Origin: Pedobacter duraquae
Lineage (GTDB): Bacteria > Bacteroidota > Bacteroidia > Sphingobacteriales > Sphingobacteriaceae
Assembly: GCF_004362245.1 (NCBI RefSeq)
Contig: NZ_SNWM01000007.1
Span: 1 to 64,000, forward strand
DNA: 64,000 nt
Direction of reading: 5' to 3'
This document shows, piece by piece, positions 44,633 to 51,613 of this stretch. The position numbers were made by a program, and so were the translations under genes. The notes under the pieces are model-generated. The model saw only the letters and a list, made by a program, of their open reading frames with translations, was not told the DNA's origin and ran no database searches. The number at the start of each line of letters is the position of its first letter. Position 1 is the first letter of the stretch.

Positions 44633-47002
44633 CTATTGTTTATTCTTCAACGTTGTTTCGAATAATTTGAATATTCGCTTGTATTCATCGGTCCAGCTAC
44701 TCGGTTCAGTAAACCCATGGTCTTCTACAGGATACACAGCAAGTTCCCAGTTATTTTTACCAAGCTCAATCAGTCGTTGCGATAACCTCACAATATCCTG
44801 AAAATGTACATTTACATCTACCATACCGTGTGCCATCAGTAAATTTCCCTTTAAACCACTAGCAAAATTGATAGGCGAACTGCGTTGGTATGCAATCTCA
44901 TCATTGAAAGGCTCGTTAAGTATATTCGCTGTGTACCCATGGTTGTAATGCGCCCAGTCAGTAACAGACCTCAACCCTGCTCCACTAGCAAAAACTTCTG
45001 GTTCTTTAAACAGGCCCATCAGTGTAATGAAACCGCCATAAGACCCCCCGTATAAACCAACGTGTTTTGGATTAACACCGTATTTCTCAACGAGTAATTT
45101 AACGCCATCTACCTGGTCTGTGAGGTCTTTACCACCCATAAACCTATAAATACCTGTGCGGTGATCTCTACCATAGCCAGAACTTCCGGTGTAATCTATA
45201 TCAATTACCGTATAGCCATTGTCGGCCAAAAAGTTGTTAAACATATATTCTCTGGAATATTGGCTCCACCAATAGTGCACATTCTGGAGGTAGCCTGCTC
45301 CATGCACAAACACCACAGCCGGGTGGTTAGCATCAGGCGTTTTAGCAGGATATATTCGCGCGTAAACATCTGCTCCATATCGATTTTTGAAAGAAACCAT
45401 TTCCGGCTGACGCCATGCATACGATTTAAATTCTGCAGAAGTTGAATTTGTGATTTGAACCGCCTTCGCGCCTGGCTGATTTGGCTGCACATACAGTTCC
45501 CATGGCTTATCCATATAGGAATAATTGATCGCCAGCCATTTCTCATCAGGGGAAAGCGTGATCTCATTTCCGCCTTTCGTGGACGTGATCTGTACCGGCT
45601 CACCACCATCTACACTAAGCTTGTAGAAGTGGGTAATGCCAGGATGTTCTTTATTGGCCGTGAAATAAAAGGTTTTTTTATCTTTCGAAAGTTGAAGCGT
45701 TTGAACTTCCCATTTTCCAGATGTGAGTTGCTTTTTTTGTCCGCTTGCCATATTGGCAATATATAGATGGGAATAACCACTGGCTTCACTCTGATAATAT
45801 AGTCTGTTGTTATCTATCCAACCTACATTTCTGGAGCCAATGCCTGGTCCGCCAATCCAGGCCTCATCCCGTTGACGGTCTATGATCGTTAAGTTACCAG
45901 TTGCTGCATCCATTTTCAGGATCCAAAGGTCCTTGTTATCCAACGATTCTCCTACCACCACAGCTGTTGTGCCGTTTGCATTCCAAATTGCGTCAGAAAG
46001 CCTTATTTTGCGGTCTTCATTCTTCTTGGTTCGTTCAGCCAACTGTTTTGGGTAGTCTTTCAAATAGTCTGGCAGATCCTTAATACCGGGGATCTGCGCA
46101 ACATGTACTTTATACGAACTGTCCTTTTTATTATCATATACAAAGTTTTCATAAGAAGCCATAGCCTCACCTACTTTGGTCCGACCAGGAATATCCTCGG
46201 TATAACCTGATGCCGTTACATAATTGGGAACTACCGTACGTGTCGCTAACGCCGCTGGGGTTACCAGCTGATAAGTGATGTAACGCCCATCCGGACTCAC
46301 ACCAAGACCCGTTAACACTTTATCGTCTAAATAAATTGCCTTCATTGATTCTGCAGTGCCGCTCCTTGCAAACCGGCCGAAACGACCACCGCCACCTGTT
46401 TGGCGGACGGGGTTTTTGATGATATCGAACAACTGGCTTTGCTCTGTTTTAAGCCAGCTGTCTTGTTCAGAAACAGGCTTACGCTCTACCACTACCGGAC
46501 GCTTACCTCTAACAAAGTTACTTAACTGCACTAATTCATTGGTTTTCAGGTCAAGGCTAAATATATTGTCGCCCTTCTGAAAATACACATCCCCGTTAAA
46601 CAAGAAACCAGGATTGCTTTCCCTTTCTACAGTACGCATCAGCCTTTGTACCTTCTTTGTCTTAACATTGAGCAGATATACGTCGCCGTCCTTCTCCGCC
46701 ACACCCATAGTTTTATCTGCAGTAAAACGATAGATAGAGCCGATAGCTTTTTTTAACAGAGAGTCAGCAGACTTCTCATATTTCATTGTACCAACTTGCA
46801 ACGCATACAGGGGCTGTTCCTTTTTATTTTCGGGATTCCAGTTAAAAAACACCGTCTTACTATCGTCCGACCACCTGTAAGCCGAAGGCGCAACGCCAAT
46901 CCATTTCTGGTCGCGCATGATTTTCTCCACCGTTAGCGGAGCCAGCTGCTGCGCTTGTACTGCCGAAGCAGTTAATAAAAATAAACCTAATATTCTTTTC
47001 AT
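44633..47002 (-). CDS. S9-family prolyl oligopeptidase, DPP IV-like, secreted
   Basis: A 789-residue protein with a signal peptide (MKRILGLFLLTASAVQAQ), an N-terminal eight-bladed beta-propeller domain (about 30-500) and a C-terminal alpha/beta hydrolase. The nucleophile Ser is in LYGGSYGGFITLMG and the His in YPVEDHGFTEPSSW. It probably removes dipeptides or oligopeptides outside the cytoplasm. It begins exactly 1 base after the stop of the M14 carboxypeptidase gene, so the two peptidases and the upstream M14 relative form one operon. Confidence 0.93.
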   Translation of the reverse strand: MKRILGLFLLTASAVQAQQLAPLTVEKIMRDQKWIGVAPSAYRWSDDSKTVFFNWNPENKKEQPLYALQVGTMKYEKSADSLLKKAIGSIYRFTADKTMGVAEKDGDVYLLNVKTKKVQRLMRTVERESNPGFLFNGDVYFQKGDNIFSLDLKTNELVQLSNFVRGKRPVVVERKPVSEQDSWLKTEQSQLFDIIKNPVRQTGGGGRFGRFARSGTAESMKAIYLDDKVLTGLGVSPDGRYITYQLVTPAALATRTVVPNYVTASGYTEDIPGRTKVGEAMASYENFVYDNKKDSSYKVHVAQIPGIKDLPDYLKDYPKQLAERTKKNEDRKIRLSDAIWNANGTTAVVVGESLDNKDLWILKMDAATGNLTIIDRQRDEAWIGGPGIGSRNVGWIDNNRLYYQSEASGYSHLYIANMASGQKKQLTSGKWEVQTLQLSKDKKTFYFTANKEHPGITHFYKLSVDGGEPVQITSTKGGNEITLSPDEKWLAINYSYMDKPWELYVQPNQPGAKAVQITNSTSAEFKSYAWRQPEMVSFKNRYGADVYARIYPAKTPDANHPAVVFVHGAGYLQNVHYWWSQYSREYMFNNFLADNGYTVIDIDYTGSSGYGRDHRTGIYRFMGGKDLTDQVDGVKLLVEKYGVNPKHVGLYGGSYGGFITLMGLFKEPEVFASGAGLRSVTDWAHYNHGYTANILNEPFNDEIAYQRSSPINFASGLKGNLLMAHGMVDVNVHFQDIVRLSQRLIELGKNNWELAVYPVEDHGFTEPSSWTDEYKRIFKLFETTLKNKQ

Positions 47003-48730
47003 TTAATTTGTTTTTGAGGCTTCGCCTCCTTTTTTACTCGATACTTGCACAGTGTATTTTGCACCACCCTGGACCACCCAGCGTACGGTAACAAAGCCAT
47101 TCCCCGGGATGTTCGCGACCTTAATATGTGCAGCGTCGTTAGCTTGTTCTCTAGTGATGTTCAGATCCCTGTTTTCTACAATCATACCGGCGATTACTTT
47201 TCCTCCCGACAAGCTGATCACATCTGGGATCTCAATGTTGTTCTTTAAATCCTGACTAGAGTGCGTTGGAATCATGCGGTCGTTAGATACAATCGCAGTT
47301 ACCTGATTTAAGCCCGAACCCAGATCTTTAACCTCAATTTCTCCGACGGCAAGATTTGGCGTATTGTATGCATGGTAAACGCTGAATGACATATTGCGGT
47401 GTGCATCACTTTCCAGCAGGAAGCCGGGATGCAAACGGGTGTAGGTTTTCTTGAAACCGCCAATCTCAATATCACCGTACTGAGGGTGTTTAAATGGATG
47501 CCAATCGACAAATGCATCCTTCATCAATAAATCACGGTCAAACTTGTAGGTTTGGGATTGTCCATCCTCGTTTGGCTTATTGTACATGGAATAATCTGTC
47601 CAAAGCTCATTGGAGAATGTGTAGATTCCACGCCCCCCATAGAACCAATCAAGTTCTCCCCCAAATACAGAATAAAGATCTTTGTATACTACCAGATAAC
47701 GATAACCAGGAAGCATTTCTTCTCCCTTTTTTCCTAACGCATCGTATACCCGAACATCTTGTGCATTGTAGGTATCAATATCTTCCATCGCACCTGGCCC
47801 CCTCAGGATCTGACCACCATTGTTGTGGTAAGATTGTGCCGCAGCAATGTTTGGATGCTTCATCACGAAATCAGAAACTGCTCTGTTCTCAGGAATTGAA
47901 AAAGGATATTTGTAAGCGCCGCCTTGAATATAGTTTGGTTGCCAGTTCCATCCCCAGTCTCTGTTAGGATCATATGCCCCTTCACCGTCTTCATTAACAA
48001 ATCCATCACCATCGTTATCAATACCTTCAGATCCAAGCAATTCATATTCGCCCTTTTCTTCAGGACCAACCAAAATCATGCGTCTTGGATCTGTAGGATC
48101 TGCTTTAAATTTACCTGTTGCACTTTTTCTACGCATCATTACGATATGTCCATCTCCATCTAAGTCATCAAATCCATCTTCATTCACCTTTCCATCGCGG
48201 TCATTATCAATAGGAATTAATCCTGTTCTTGGTGAATGAGCAGTGTTTGGTGAATGAATGAAGCTATCCCTAGCATCAGGATTAATGGTCGGCGCAATGT
48301 AAAAGGTCTTCTCCGATAGCAGAGACTGGATACTTTTGTTACCCTGCGCAAACATTTCCGTTAGATACCACGCGGTGTACATCGCAAACTCGCTACCTTG
48401 GATCTCATTGGAGTGGATGTTACCATCGATATACATAGCCGGTTTTTTATCAGCCTTCCCAACTTTTGAATTGGTTATTGTCATTACCCAAAGATCCTTA
48501 CCCAGGTACGACTTGCCCATAGACTCAAGCTTAACAAGATCCGGGTGTGCCTGGGCAATTTTTTTAACCATATCTGTCAAACCTGCATAATCGTAATAGC
48601 GGTTCCAGCTTATTGGTACTTTGGGGTTAAATGGACTGCCTACGGCAGCAATAACGTTTTCTGGTTTTTGTGCGTTAACCAGTTGCCCACACAACACGAG
48701 GGCTGTAAATAGAATATATTTAATCTTCAT
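47003..48730 (-). CDS. M14-family zinc carboxypeptidase, secreted, with Ca-binding-like insert
   Basis: A 575-residue protein with a signal peptide (MKIKYILFTALVLCGQLVNAQ). The M14 active site is complete: His106 and Glu109 (DGNIHSNEIQG), His302 (QSYHNNGGQ), substrate Arg257 (DPNRDWGWNW) and catalytic Glu375 (YTFSNELW). Two acidic loops, DNDRDGKVNEDG at 175-186 with DLDGDG at 189-194, and DNDGDGFVNEDG at 238-249, look like EF-hand/thrombospondin-type calcium sites inserted in the peptidase domain. I chose ATG 48730 because the signal peptide begins there. It lies 10 bases after the paralogue's stop. Confidence 0.92.
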   Translation of the reverse strand: MKIKYILFTALVLCGQLVNAQKPENVIAAVGSPFNPKVPISWNRYYDYAGLTDMVKKIAQAHPDLVKLESMGKSYLGKDLWVMTITNSKVGKADKKPAMYIDGNIHSNEIQGSEFAMYTAWYLTEMFAQGNKSIQSLLSEKTFYIAPTINPDARDSFIHSPNTAHSPRTGLIPIDNDRDGKVNEDGFDDLDGDGHIVMMRRKSATGKFKADPTDPRRMILVGPEEKGEYELLGSEGIDNDGDGFVNEDGEGAYDPNRDWGWNWQPNYIQGGAYKYPFSIPENRAVSDFVMKHPNIAAAQSYHNNGGQILRGPGAMEDIDTYNAQDVRVYDALGKKGEEMLPGYRYLVVYKDLYSVFGGELDWFYGGRGIYTFSNELWTDYSMYNKPNEDGQSQTYKFDRDLLMKDAFVDWHPFKHPQYGDIEIGGFKKTYTRLHPGFLLESDAHRNMSFSVYHAYNTPNLAVGEIEVKDLGSGLNQVTAIVSNDRMIPTHSSQDLKNNIEIPDVISLSGGKVIAGMIVENRDLNITREQANDAAHIKVANIPGNGFVTVRWVVQGGAKYTVQVSSKKGGEASKTN

Positions 48731-48740
48731 GTCTGTTTGC

Positions 48741-50381
48741 TTAGAGGGTGAGGTCAACTGTCTTATTTCCTGAAGAAGGGCTGCCTGCATAAACTGCAAC
48801 TTTGCCGCTTCCTTTAATTAACCAGGTCAGCTCGGTGAAATCCCTTCCCGGGATCGCATCGAGTGTCTGATACTGCCTGCCGCTAACTACTGACTGGCCG
48901 CTGGCAAGCGTCATTCTTACAGAAATCTTTTTCAGAAAATAGCTCTTTTCTCCAACCTTAGTCAGGGTAGGCAGGATACCAGCGTTCATCACTTTCATCG
49001 TTATACGCGTCAAGCCTTCTCCTAACTTGTCCGTTTTTACACCAACCAGATCGATGGATGGCGCCATAGCTGATAATGCCAGAATGAAGTTGGTATGCTT
49101 GCTCACAATTGGATCCACCAACTTATAAGGTGGATTAATCAGTACATAGGGATCAAGTCCTCCTACTTCAACAGTTTGGCCTGGGAAATCCGGATGATTT
49201 ACAGCCTTCCACTCGGTAAAGGTGTTGGTTATTCCCTGTGTTGCTGCCCAACGCAAATAAGCAGGGACGGCATCCTCAACGCTAAATGCTTTTTCTTTCT
49301 TGGTTGTGTCTGGGCGAGCCTTAGGAACCCACCATCCCGGTGTACTAAAACTTAAGCGACCATAGTGAAAATATCCCCATTGCGAGAAGTCTCCACTTTC
49401 CGGAGTAACTTTTGGAGCATCTTTGGTACCTGTAATTTTATTGTATTTCTCAGAAACCAGCGCATTCGCCTTAACATCCTGATCATACCATCCGGTAATG
49501 ATTCTTTTGCTTATACCCATTGGATTAAAAACAACTGGCGTAGATAAGTTATTAGCCGGACCAAAACTGACAAGTGCGTAAACATTGGACGCGTCAAAAA
49601 GAAAGTCAAAAAGCGCTCTGTTTTCTTTTTCAGATACCGCATACTCCCCGGCCCCGGCAACGAAATTTTTAAAGTTATAACTGGAATTTCTGTTAAAGCT
49701 GATCCCGCCGTCGCCATCTTCATTAAATGCCCCGTCTTTGTCGTTGTCGATTCCTTCACGAAGGAGTTTGTATTTTCCCGTTTCTCCTTTTGCTGCATCG
49801 GCAAGCACCAGGGATCGGTTGTCATCAGGATTCAACTTATATGTGCCTGTAGGATCAAGTACGCGCATCGAGGTGATTTTTCCGTTTCCATCAAGATCGT
49901 CATACCCATCTTCATTAACTTTTCCATCCCTGTCATCGTCTGTGGGTGTACCGTTCCCGCTGCGCTCATACTTAATTTTACCAAAATATTGCTCCGTGGC
50001 ATCAGGGCTCATGTTTGGAAAGACATAGTAAGTCTGCGCAGTCAGAATCTTTTTCAAACTGTCGGCAGGTAGCGCCATCAACTTCTCAGCAAAACCGAGA
50101 GCCATTTCAACACCTAACAGATGCTTGCCATCCACACCACCAACAACAGCGATAGCTGGCTTCATCTGGGTGTCCCCGGTGCCCAGCGTAAGCATCCAGA
50201 CATCTTTGCCTGTCACAGTTTTAGTAAGTACTTTTGCTTTTAGGTATTGTGGAAATTTCTTTGCCAGGGCATCCACCCGCCCGGTTAATTGTGCATTTGT
50301 GCTATAGTCTGTTTGCGACTGGGCAAAGCCGGTACCGGCCAGACAAAGCATAAAGAGATTTAGGAGGTAAAGTTTCTTCAT
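48741..50381 (-). CDS. M14-like pseudo-carboxypeptidase, secreted
   Basis: A 546-residue paralogue of the next gene, with signal peptide (MKKLYLLNLFMLCLAGTGFAQ) and the same acidic loops (DDDRDGKVNEDG at about 148-159, DNDKDGAFNEDG at 212-223). The catalytic set is gone: the His/Glu pair is Asp84/His87 (GGVDGKHLLGVE), the third His is Gly274 (VSFGPANN) and the catalytic Glu is Pro in LSFSTPGWW. It is therefore likely non-enzymatic, perhaps a binding partner of its active paralogue. The operon begins here. A C-terminal beta domain (about 420-546) is shared with the active protein. Confidence 0.88.
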   Translation of the reverse strand: MKKLYLLNLFMLCLAGTGFAQSQTDYSTNAQLTGRVDALAKKFPQYLKAKVLTKTVTGKDVWMLTLGTGDTQMKPAIAVVGGVDGKHLLGVEMALGFAEKLMALPADSLKKILTAQTYYVFPNMSPDATEQYFGKIKYERSGNGTPTDDDRDGKVNEDGYDDLDGNGKITSMRVLDPTGTYKLNPDDNRSLVLADAAKGETGKYKLLREGIDNDKDGAFNEDGDGGISFNRNSSYNFKNFVAGAGEYAVSEKENRALFDFLFDASNVYALVSFGPANNLSTPVVFNPMGISKRIITGWYDQDVKANALVSEKYNKITGTKDAPKVTPESGDFSQWGYFHYGRLSFSTPGWWVPKARPDTTKKEKAFSVEDAVPAYLRWAATQGITNTFTEWKAVNHPDFPGQTVEVGGLDPYVLINPPYKLVDPIVSKHTNFILALSAMAPSIDLVGVKTDKLGEGLTRITMKVMNAGILPTLTKVGEKSYFLKKISVRMTLASGQSVVSGRQYQTLDAIPGRDFTELTWLIKGSGKVAVYAGSPSSGNKTVDLTL

Positions 50382-50482: not shown

Positions 50483-51613
50483 TCAGCGTGTTATCCTACC
50501 AGACTTATCTGTTCCAACATCAGCCGGTTTCAGATAGGCATTCACCAGGATACTAAAAGCTGTTCTCGATATCGGTTTTGTGTAATCTAGTGGGCCTTCA
50601 AGTTTAAAATCAATGTCCCATCTTTTTTCCAGGACCATACGGACGGCATCTTCAGATTTGTTACCCACATAACACACCAATGCAATAGTTTTAGCCAGAG
50701 TCATGGTACCGGCCCCATTATCGTCAAACCAGATTTGGGCTTTATAAAAAAGATCCTTTAGGGGTTGTTTCACCTCTTCTATCTGGACTGGCTGGCGGGG
50801 CTTAAAAAATAGATTTCCATCCTGAACCACTGGCTTTAGTACACCCATTAGTGTTAAGTTTTGGACTGCCCGCCAGGTGCTATCACTCGGACTGACATCT
50901 GTCAATGGCACCAATGCCATTTTGAAACCTAGCAACTCACCCTGAATCCTTTTAACATTCGACAGACTGGTTTTAGTTTTAAAAAATGCAGCATATGCCG
51001 CAATAGCTCCAGCGGCCTGAGCGGCTTGTATTTCTGTAAAGGGGACATATACCGCATTTTCCTTTTCAGGACTGAGAAAATCTCGCAGCGTAAAAAATGT
51101 CGCTGTTGTTTTTTTGCCGGAATAGTAAATTCCAGAGCCCAAACTTGTCCGATATTCCATTGCGGTATAATCAATTGGCAAAGGCTGATTTAGAGATGGA
51201 GTACTGCTAACAGCGACTTTCGCCCTGAGATCTCTTCCATCTGCCAATCTAACTTTCCAGCCACTTCCGGAAGATAATAGCATAAAGGGTTCCTGGACCT
51301 GAATCAGGCTGAGGTTTTTTGTAGAGTCGAGCCACTTTTCAATAATATAATCTGTCTGTGCTGTAGTCGCAGTGCCTTTCGTTTTTTTTAACAGTTCAGC
51401 AGCGATTCCCGAAGGGAGATTGACATCGAGCTGGCCGACAGGAAAATTCCCTGGGCTATATAAAAATATGGTTTTTACTGCCGAGGAGGCAGACTGTAAT
51501 GCTGCAGCCCAGTTTTCCCTTCCGGTAACCAGTACATCGGTTTTTATTTTCTGTGCTTTCAGGCCTAAAAAGCCAAAGATACAGATCAGCAAAAGCAGAC
51601 TCTTTTTTATCAT
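50483..51613 (-). CDS. Degenerate FAD-dependent-oxidoreductase-like secreted protein
   Basis: A 376-residue protein with a signal peptide (MIKKSLLLLICIFGFLGLKAQ). The next residues, KIKTDVLVTGRENWAAALQSASSAVKT in two parts, align with the start of secreted FAD_oxidored proteins (DVLVIGGGxxGVAAA) but lack the GxGxxG glycines, so FAD binding by this site is unlikely. The C-terminal QAAGAIAAYAAFFK segment matches the usual AGxAAA helix of that family, while the middle part is much shortened. A -7 box (minus strand 51632-51639) precedes the ATG. It is separated from the M14 operon by 101 bases. Function unknown. Confidence 0.65.
   Translation of the reverse strand: MIKKSLLLLICIFGFLGLKAQKIKTDVLVTGRENWAAALQSASSAVKTIFLYSPGNFPVGQLDVNLPSGIAAELLKKTKGTATTAQTDYIIEKWLDSTKNLSLIQVQEPFMLLSSGSGWKVRLADGRDLRAKVAVSSTPSLNQPLPIDYTAMEYRTSLGSGIYYSGKKTTATFFTLRDFLSPEKENAVYVPFTEIQAAQAAGAIAAYAAFFKTKTSLSNVKRIQGELLGFKMALVPLTDVSPSDSTWRAVQNLTLMGVLKPVVQDGNLFFKPRQPVQIEEVKQPLKDLFYKAQIWFDDNGAGTMTLAKTIALVCYVGNKSEDAVRMVLEKRWDIDFKLEGPLDYTKPISRTAFSILVNAYLKPADVGTDKSGRITR

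Follow-up and report, generated by a model that had tools for sequence, protein, structure and literature searches.

A secreted M14 carboxypeptidase homologue without catalytic residues, inherited with its active paralogue across Bacteroidota

Why does the soil bacterium Pedobacter duraquae encode, immediately ahead of an intact secreted zinc carboxypeptidase, a homologue of that enzyme from which the catalytic residues have gone? The two genes lie on the reverse strand of the window, by which we mean the whole stretch of 64,000 nucleotides that was analysed (contig NZ_SNWM01000007.1). The first gene of the pair, here termed DEAD (48741..50381), starts with ATG and encodes 546 aa, beginning with a signal peptide of the FAQ cleavage type (MKKLYLLNLFMLCLAGTGFAQ, 50319..50381). 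The second, termed ACT (47003..48730, 575 aa), begins 10 nt past the DEAD stop; its start was placed at MKIK, and the listed open reading frame of 598 aa begins at a TTG further upstream. Both products match PF00246 (Peptidase_M14), DEAD with an E-value of 1.8e-11 (44.7 bits vs a cut-off of 21.6) and ACT with an E-value of 7.7e-36, and by homology and fold DEAD is a member of the M14 family.

A preliminary description of the locus, made from the sequence of the window, had set out the loss of the zinc ligands and of the catalytic Glu residue by residue, and in an alignment of 223 sequences this account proved exact. ACT retains the zinc-binding HSNE (48404..48415), the third zinc ligand H302 (47825..47827) and the catalytic E375 (47606..47608), all on the reverse strand. 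The corresponding changes in DEAD are H106 to D84, E109 to H87, H302 to G274 and E375 to P348, and they fall in three reverse-strand loops: the former HxxE loop GGVDGKHLLG (50112..50141, with the codons D84-H87 at 50121-50132), the former third-ligand loop SFGPANNLS (49542..49568) and the former catalytic-Glu loop FHYGRLSFSTPGWW (49329..49370). Two catalytic residues beyond those in the preliminary description are also lost: in the CPT profile alignment the equivalent of R127 is V/I and that of Y248 is P. The CPA numbering of DEAD positions was transferred through this alignment and, in part, from what is generally known of CPA and CPT. Judged by its sequence, DEAD is an M14 carboxypeptidase homologue that lacks residues expected in a competent M14 peptidase: all three zinc ligands and the catalytic Glu, as well as the oxyanion Arg and the counterpart of Tyr248.

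To collect orthologues, bacterial and archaeal species genomes were scanned with patterns that avoid the catalytic motifs, which yielded 80 loci; together with the family genomes these made 111 orthologous loci (some of them present in both collections), which fall into about 55 independent clusters when grouped at 80% identity. All 111 belong to Bacteroidota, and the taxa with the pair include Pedobacter, Parapedobacter, Sediminibacterium and other Chitinophagaceae, Cellulophaga, Polaribacter, Rufibacter, Cyclobacteriaceae and Bacteroidales MAGs. The four catalytic positions that make up HxxE...H and the general base E270 are lost in every DEAD copy (111/111), and because identical losses are fixed in all orthologues, chance is excluded. 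The letters found instead are E/D/S/M/A/Q/L at position 84, H/L/Y/Q/N/R at 87, G/S/N at 274 and P/Q/H at 348; divergent DEAD proteins have likewise lost all four, with other letters (EIGD, ESSR, EQSY, ERSN, EDEP, ADTP). No DEAD orthologue with a full HxxE was found among the 111 orthologues, those divergent members whose catalytic loops could be read and the copies of genomes G643 and G665. Among the relatives of ACT, HxxE is present in 112/112 and the remaining two catalytic residues in 111/112, the last one having an unread residue.

Might the old pocket house another kind of metal site, or another catalysis, built on a swapped E/D-x-x-H motif and H339? Position 84 is E/D in 102/111 orthologues, position 87 is H in 94/111 and the conservation of H339 is 0.99, as such a site would have it. 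However, the other members have K/S/M/A/Q/L at 84 and L/Y/Q/N/R/I/S at 87, the R127 and Y248 equivalents are lost as well and no invariant replacement ligand set was seen, and we consider this explanation very improbable. Counting divergent DEAD proteins, the old ligand positions range over E/D/S/M/A/Q/L/K (84) and H/L/Y/Q/N/R/I/S/D (87), and no conserved alternative zinc site was found at the old place in the 111 orthologues and the divergent members. Given this variation, a zinc site rebuilt there as a conserved feature finds no support and is rejected.

The fold, the signal peptide and both acidic loops had been described as kept in DEAD, and all three were confirmed. An AlphaFold2 model of DEAD built from 65 orthologues (mean pLDDT 88, pTM 0.89) matched carboxypeptidase T of Thermoactinomyces, an M14 enzyme, in a fold search (Z 28.7, 286 residues, 3.0 A), so that DEAD presents itself as a carboxypeptidase fold without catalytic residues. 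Carboxypeptidase T is the closest solved fold of DEAD and also the best profile match of ACT; unlike the pair it is a single active enzyme, at 15% identity, and has neither the DxDxDG insert loops nor the extra C-terminal domain. The C-terminal part of DEAD (approximately residues 440-546) is predicted to form a separate beta-rich domain, which the fold search barely touched. The model of ACT was mediocre (pLDDT 74) and carries no weight in our arguments. The two DxDxDG loops, on the reverse strand at 49881..49940 (acidic loop 1, DDDRDGKVNEDGYDDLDGNG) and 49716..49748 (acidic loop 2, DNDKDGAFNED) in DEAD, show little or no variation in either DEAD or ACT: most acidic positions of loop 1 are invariant in both, and loop 2 is invariant in both clades and is the conservation maximum of DEAD. 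They look like calcium loops and probably bind calcium.

The former active-site loops of DEAD bear a new conserved signature (GGV[ED]GxHLLG / SFGPANN / FHYGRxSFSTPGWW), and the pocket therefore looks rebuilt. Conservation of these loops is 0.776 vs 0.667 in the rest of the domain, a difference that is suggestive only, with 23 of 394 circular shifts as high. The effective number of sequences, approximately 28-55, is too low for an analysis of residue coevolution between DEAD and ACT. Conserved new pocket loops would also suit a separate periplasmic binding protein, the pocket of which takes a ligand (peptide C-termini or a cell-wall fragment, for example) in the same pathway as ACT and with no stable complex between the two. 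The carboxylate-binding pair partly survives, the N144 equivalent being retained in 104/111 DEAD proteins and the R145 position being K/R in 111/111, and a lipobox-like signal is seen in 12/111 DEAD vs 2/112 ACT. Against this explanation, the complete co-occurrence and the congruent trees described below are stronger than is usual for proteins that act independently, and we regard it as unlikely, though by no means negligible.

The two genes were found to be inherited together. In Sphingobacteriaceae DEAD occurs in 41 of 251 genomes and ACT in the identical 41. A sample of 395 Bacteroidota genomes contained 37 with ACT (not counting a third M14 lineage with far lower scores), 36 of which have DEAD; in the sole exception, G381, a contig begins right at the ACT gene. 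In another family (92 genomes) DEAD is present in 19 and ACT in 18, and the contig with the unpaired DEAD, in G643, ends just past that gene. The apparent cases of solo DEAD or solo ACT are explained by contig ends, and apart from these the genes always co-occur. Presence is patchy within families, and the pair therefore seems to be gained or lost as a unit. Gene order is fixed as well, DEAD lying immediately 5′ of ACT on the same strand at all of the orthologous loci (107/107 of those for which order was scored), with a median gap of 13 nt.

From its upstream position DEAD would be made first, and the only Pfam domain of ACT is Peptidase_M14, with no recognisable pro-domain. Both observations are compatible with DEAD being an inhibitor or safety partner that silences ACT on its way to where it acts, in the manner of a pro-domain derived from the enzyme's own fold. 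Yet if the periplasmic peptidase does no harm, its inhibitor would be expected to disappear from some genomes, and ACT without DEAD was encountered only at contig ends, which makes this role improbable. The only genome seen with the two genes apart is G437, where they sit on different contigs (L153 and L154) and DEAD has the unusual residue set E, D, E, P; physical adjacency can thus be lost and is not strictly required. No natural fusion of DEAD and ACT was seen among the frames listed.

An S9/DPP IV-like peptidase gene (44633..47002, reverse strand; PF00326, PF00930) lies directly 3′ of ACT, and the preliminary description had joined it with DEAD and ACT in one operon. The S9 gene is linked to the pair in only 15 of the 80 species-genome loci, all of Pedobacter type, which rules out the three-gene operon as a functional unit. 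The gene upstream of the pair (50483-51613, reverse strand), a relative of FAD-dependent oxidoreductases with no Pfam match, likewise accompanies the pair in Pedobacter-type loci only, and no neighbour apart from DEAD and ACT themselves is conserved across loci. Most Pedobacter homologues of this upstream gene keep the nucleotide-binding GNGNxA, which has degraded to GRENWA in the window, so that the gene may encode another dead enzyme, one confined to this strain.

How old is the association? DEAD had been called a twin of the active enzyme, a term that does not hold: the two are only 32% identical and, on alignment, are old paralogues and no recent twins. In a maximum-likelihood tree DEAD forms one clade (support 99/97) and ACT another (100/99), and the intact outgroups (the third M14 lineage of Bacteroidota and the solo enzyme of a haloarchaeon) are placed on the side of ACT. 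The simplest history is then a single loss of catalysis, on the stem of DEAD. The two histories agree closely, as 17 of 18 well-supported DEAD splits are also found in the ACT tree and the distances correlate with a Mantel r of 0.87 (0.46 being the highest value in 999 permutations). One genus has a pair of a distinct type (L025-L031), which in the DEAD tree and the ACT tree alike clusters with L155 of another family, as though both genes had moved together.

Selection on DEAD is strong and purifying, though weaker than on ACT, dN/dS in close pairs being 0.02-0.10 for DEAD and mostly 0.006-0.06 for ACT. DEAD is also the faster of the two, by 1.34 times in mean tree distance and by roughly 1-8 times in dN/dS of close pairs, which fits a partner role but also a separate binding role. 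That DEAD is a decaying duplicate without function is suggested by the loss of catalytic residues and by nothing else, and we give it practically no credence: the low dN/dS, the conservation throughout the phylum and the open frames without internal stops in the listed genomes refute it, and together with the 32% identity they rule out a recent twin. With its M14 fold, its lost catalytic residues and a gene maintained by selection, DEAD has the properties of an M14 pseudopeptidase, and the comparative data strongly bear out the earlier picture, in which a secreted pseudo-enzyme is maintained next to an active relative.

The reading that we favour, as probable though far from certain, is that DEAD serves as the non-catalytic subunit of a calcium-stabilised M14 peptidase of the periplasm that is encoded by two genes. 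It accounts best for the complete co-occurrence, the fixed order, the tight spacing, the congruent trees and a fold that is dead yet selected, and also for the single origin of DEAD, the conservation of the pair alone while neighbours change and the conserved old loops. The ancestor of the pair would have been duplicated early in Bacteroidota, whereupon the ACT copy retained the zinc site and the DEAD copy lost all catalytic residues once, its old pocket being rebuilt as a binding surface. Translated from one message and exported together, the two would probably form a heteromer, in which DEAD may fold or position ACT, or hold the substrate for it. The binding or regulatory role for which the preliminary description argued is plausible on these grounds; we infer the physical complex, the direction of help, the binding of calcium and the substrate. 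The broader proposition, that M14 complexes of this kind are obligate throughout Bacteroidota and that the live subunit requires a homologous dead one with a rebuilt pocket, we hold to be slightly better than an even bet.

Several observations count against the two-subunit reading, among them the separation of the genes in G437, the faster evolution of DEAD, the lack of a fusion among the listed frames and the haloarchaeal solo relative; to our knowledge, M14 enzymes of known structure also work without a homologous dead subunit. The search beyond Bacteroidota with both profiles covered plasmid records only. The full-length relative from Halomontanus rarus (WP_276256041.1) aligns over 96% of DEAD with 24.6% identity and obtains the same score from either profile; unlike DEAD it keeps HxRE, H and E, and no paralogue is adjacent. 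Since this relative has no partner gene nearby, the fold needs no partner in principle. The haloarchaeal plasmid gene (L166:5983-7617) is intact and solo, encodes no evident signal peptide and is surrounded by amidohydrolase, dehydrogenase and ABC transporter genes.

Knowledge of pseudopeptidases is most advanced for animals and yeast, in which it is difficult to establish what they partner with. M14 pseudopeptidases have been reviewed from vertebrates, Drosophila and yeast and keep part of the zinc set: AEBP1, CPXM1, CPXM2 and Ecm14 retain H69 and E72, and CPD-III retains H69 (2024 review, PMC11266112). AEBP1/ACLP, CPXM1, CPXM2, CPD domain III and Ecm14 resemble DEAD in being secreted M14 folds that have lost catalytic residues, and CPD-III also in its place beside active domains. 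DEAD differs from these eukaryotic proteins in having lost H69, E72, R127, H196, Y248 and E270 altogether, and the reviewed examples include no bacterial protein and none whose own gene invariably accompanies that of a single active paralogue (PMC11266112). The precedent for the two-subunit logic comes from M16B peptidases, in which active and inactive homologous subunits are combined, some from neighbouring genes, as in mitochondrial processing peptidase alpha/beta, SPH2681/SPH2682, TTHA1264/TTHA1265 and AlbF/AlbE (PMC12731061). Like DEAD and ACT, these subunits are of similar size, and TTHA1264 and TTHA1265 are adjacent genes; the comparison is one of logic only, as the fold and peptidase family are unrelated (DEAD has neither the M16 fold nor HxxEH, and its only Pfam match is Peptidase_M14) and the M16B complex is solved, while that of DEAD and ACT is a proposal. 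In the largely open-access literature searched, neither a pair with an M14 pseudopeptidase in bacteria nor an obligate two-subunit arrangement in the M14 family was found described, and there was nothing relevant on a zinc carboxypeptidase in Pedobacter.

For DEAD the genome itself names the partner, an adjacent gene from which it is almost never separated in the whole phylum (about 55 independent clusters), and inheritance as an inseparable pair points to the dead copy as a partner that the live one needs. A clean test of the service of a dead enzyme to a live one becomes possible in bacteria that are harmless and culturable. Going by their residues, many Bacteroidota entries named 'M14 family zinc carboxypeptidase' could not be peptidases, and re-annotation seems due.

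Two further variations on the M14 theme were seen. In the third Bacteroidota lineage (L158, L160, L161, L164 and L165) HxxE and the catalytic Glu are present, and in these alignments the third-ligand column holds Asp (NSMDT); either His has been exchanged for Asp as the ligand, or the sequences are misaligned locally. One family has the pair expanded to DEAD-ACT-ACT (L151 in G363 and L159 in G569), DEAD being split across two frames in G363 and cut by the contig start in G569. Of the ACT copies in G569, one carries L at the third-ligand column and may be on its way to becoming a second dead copy.
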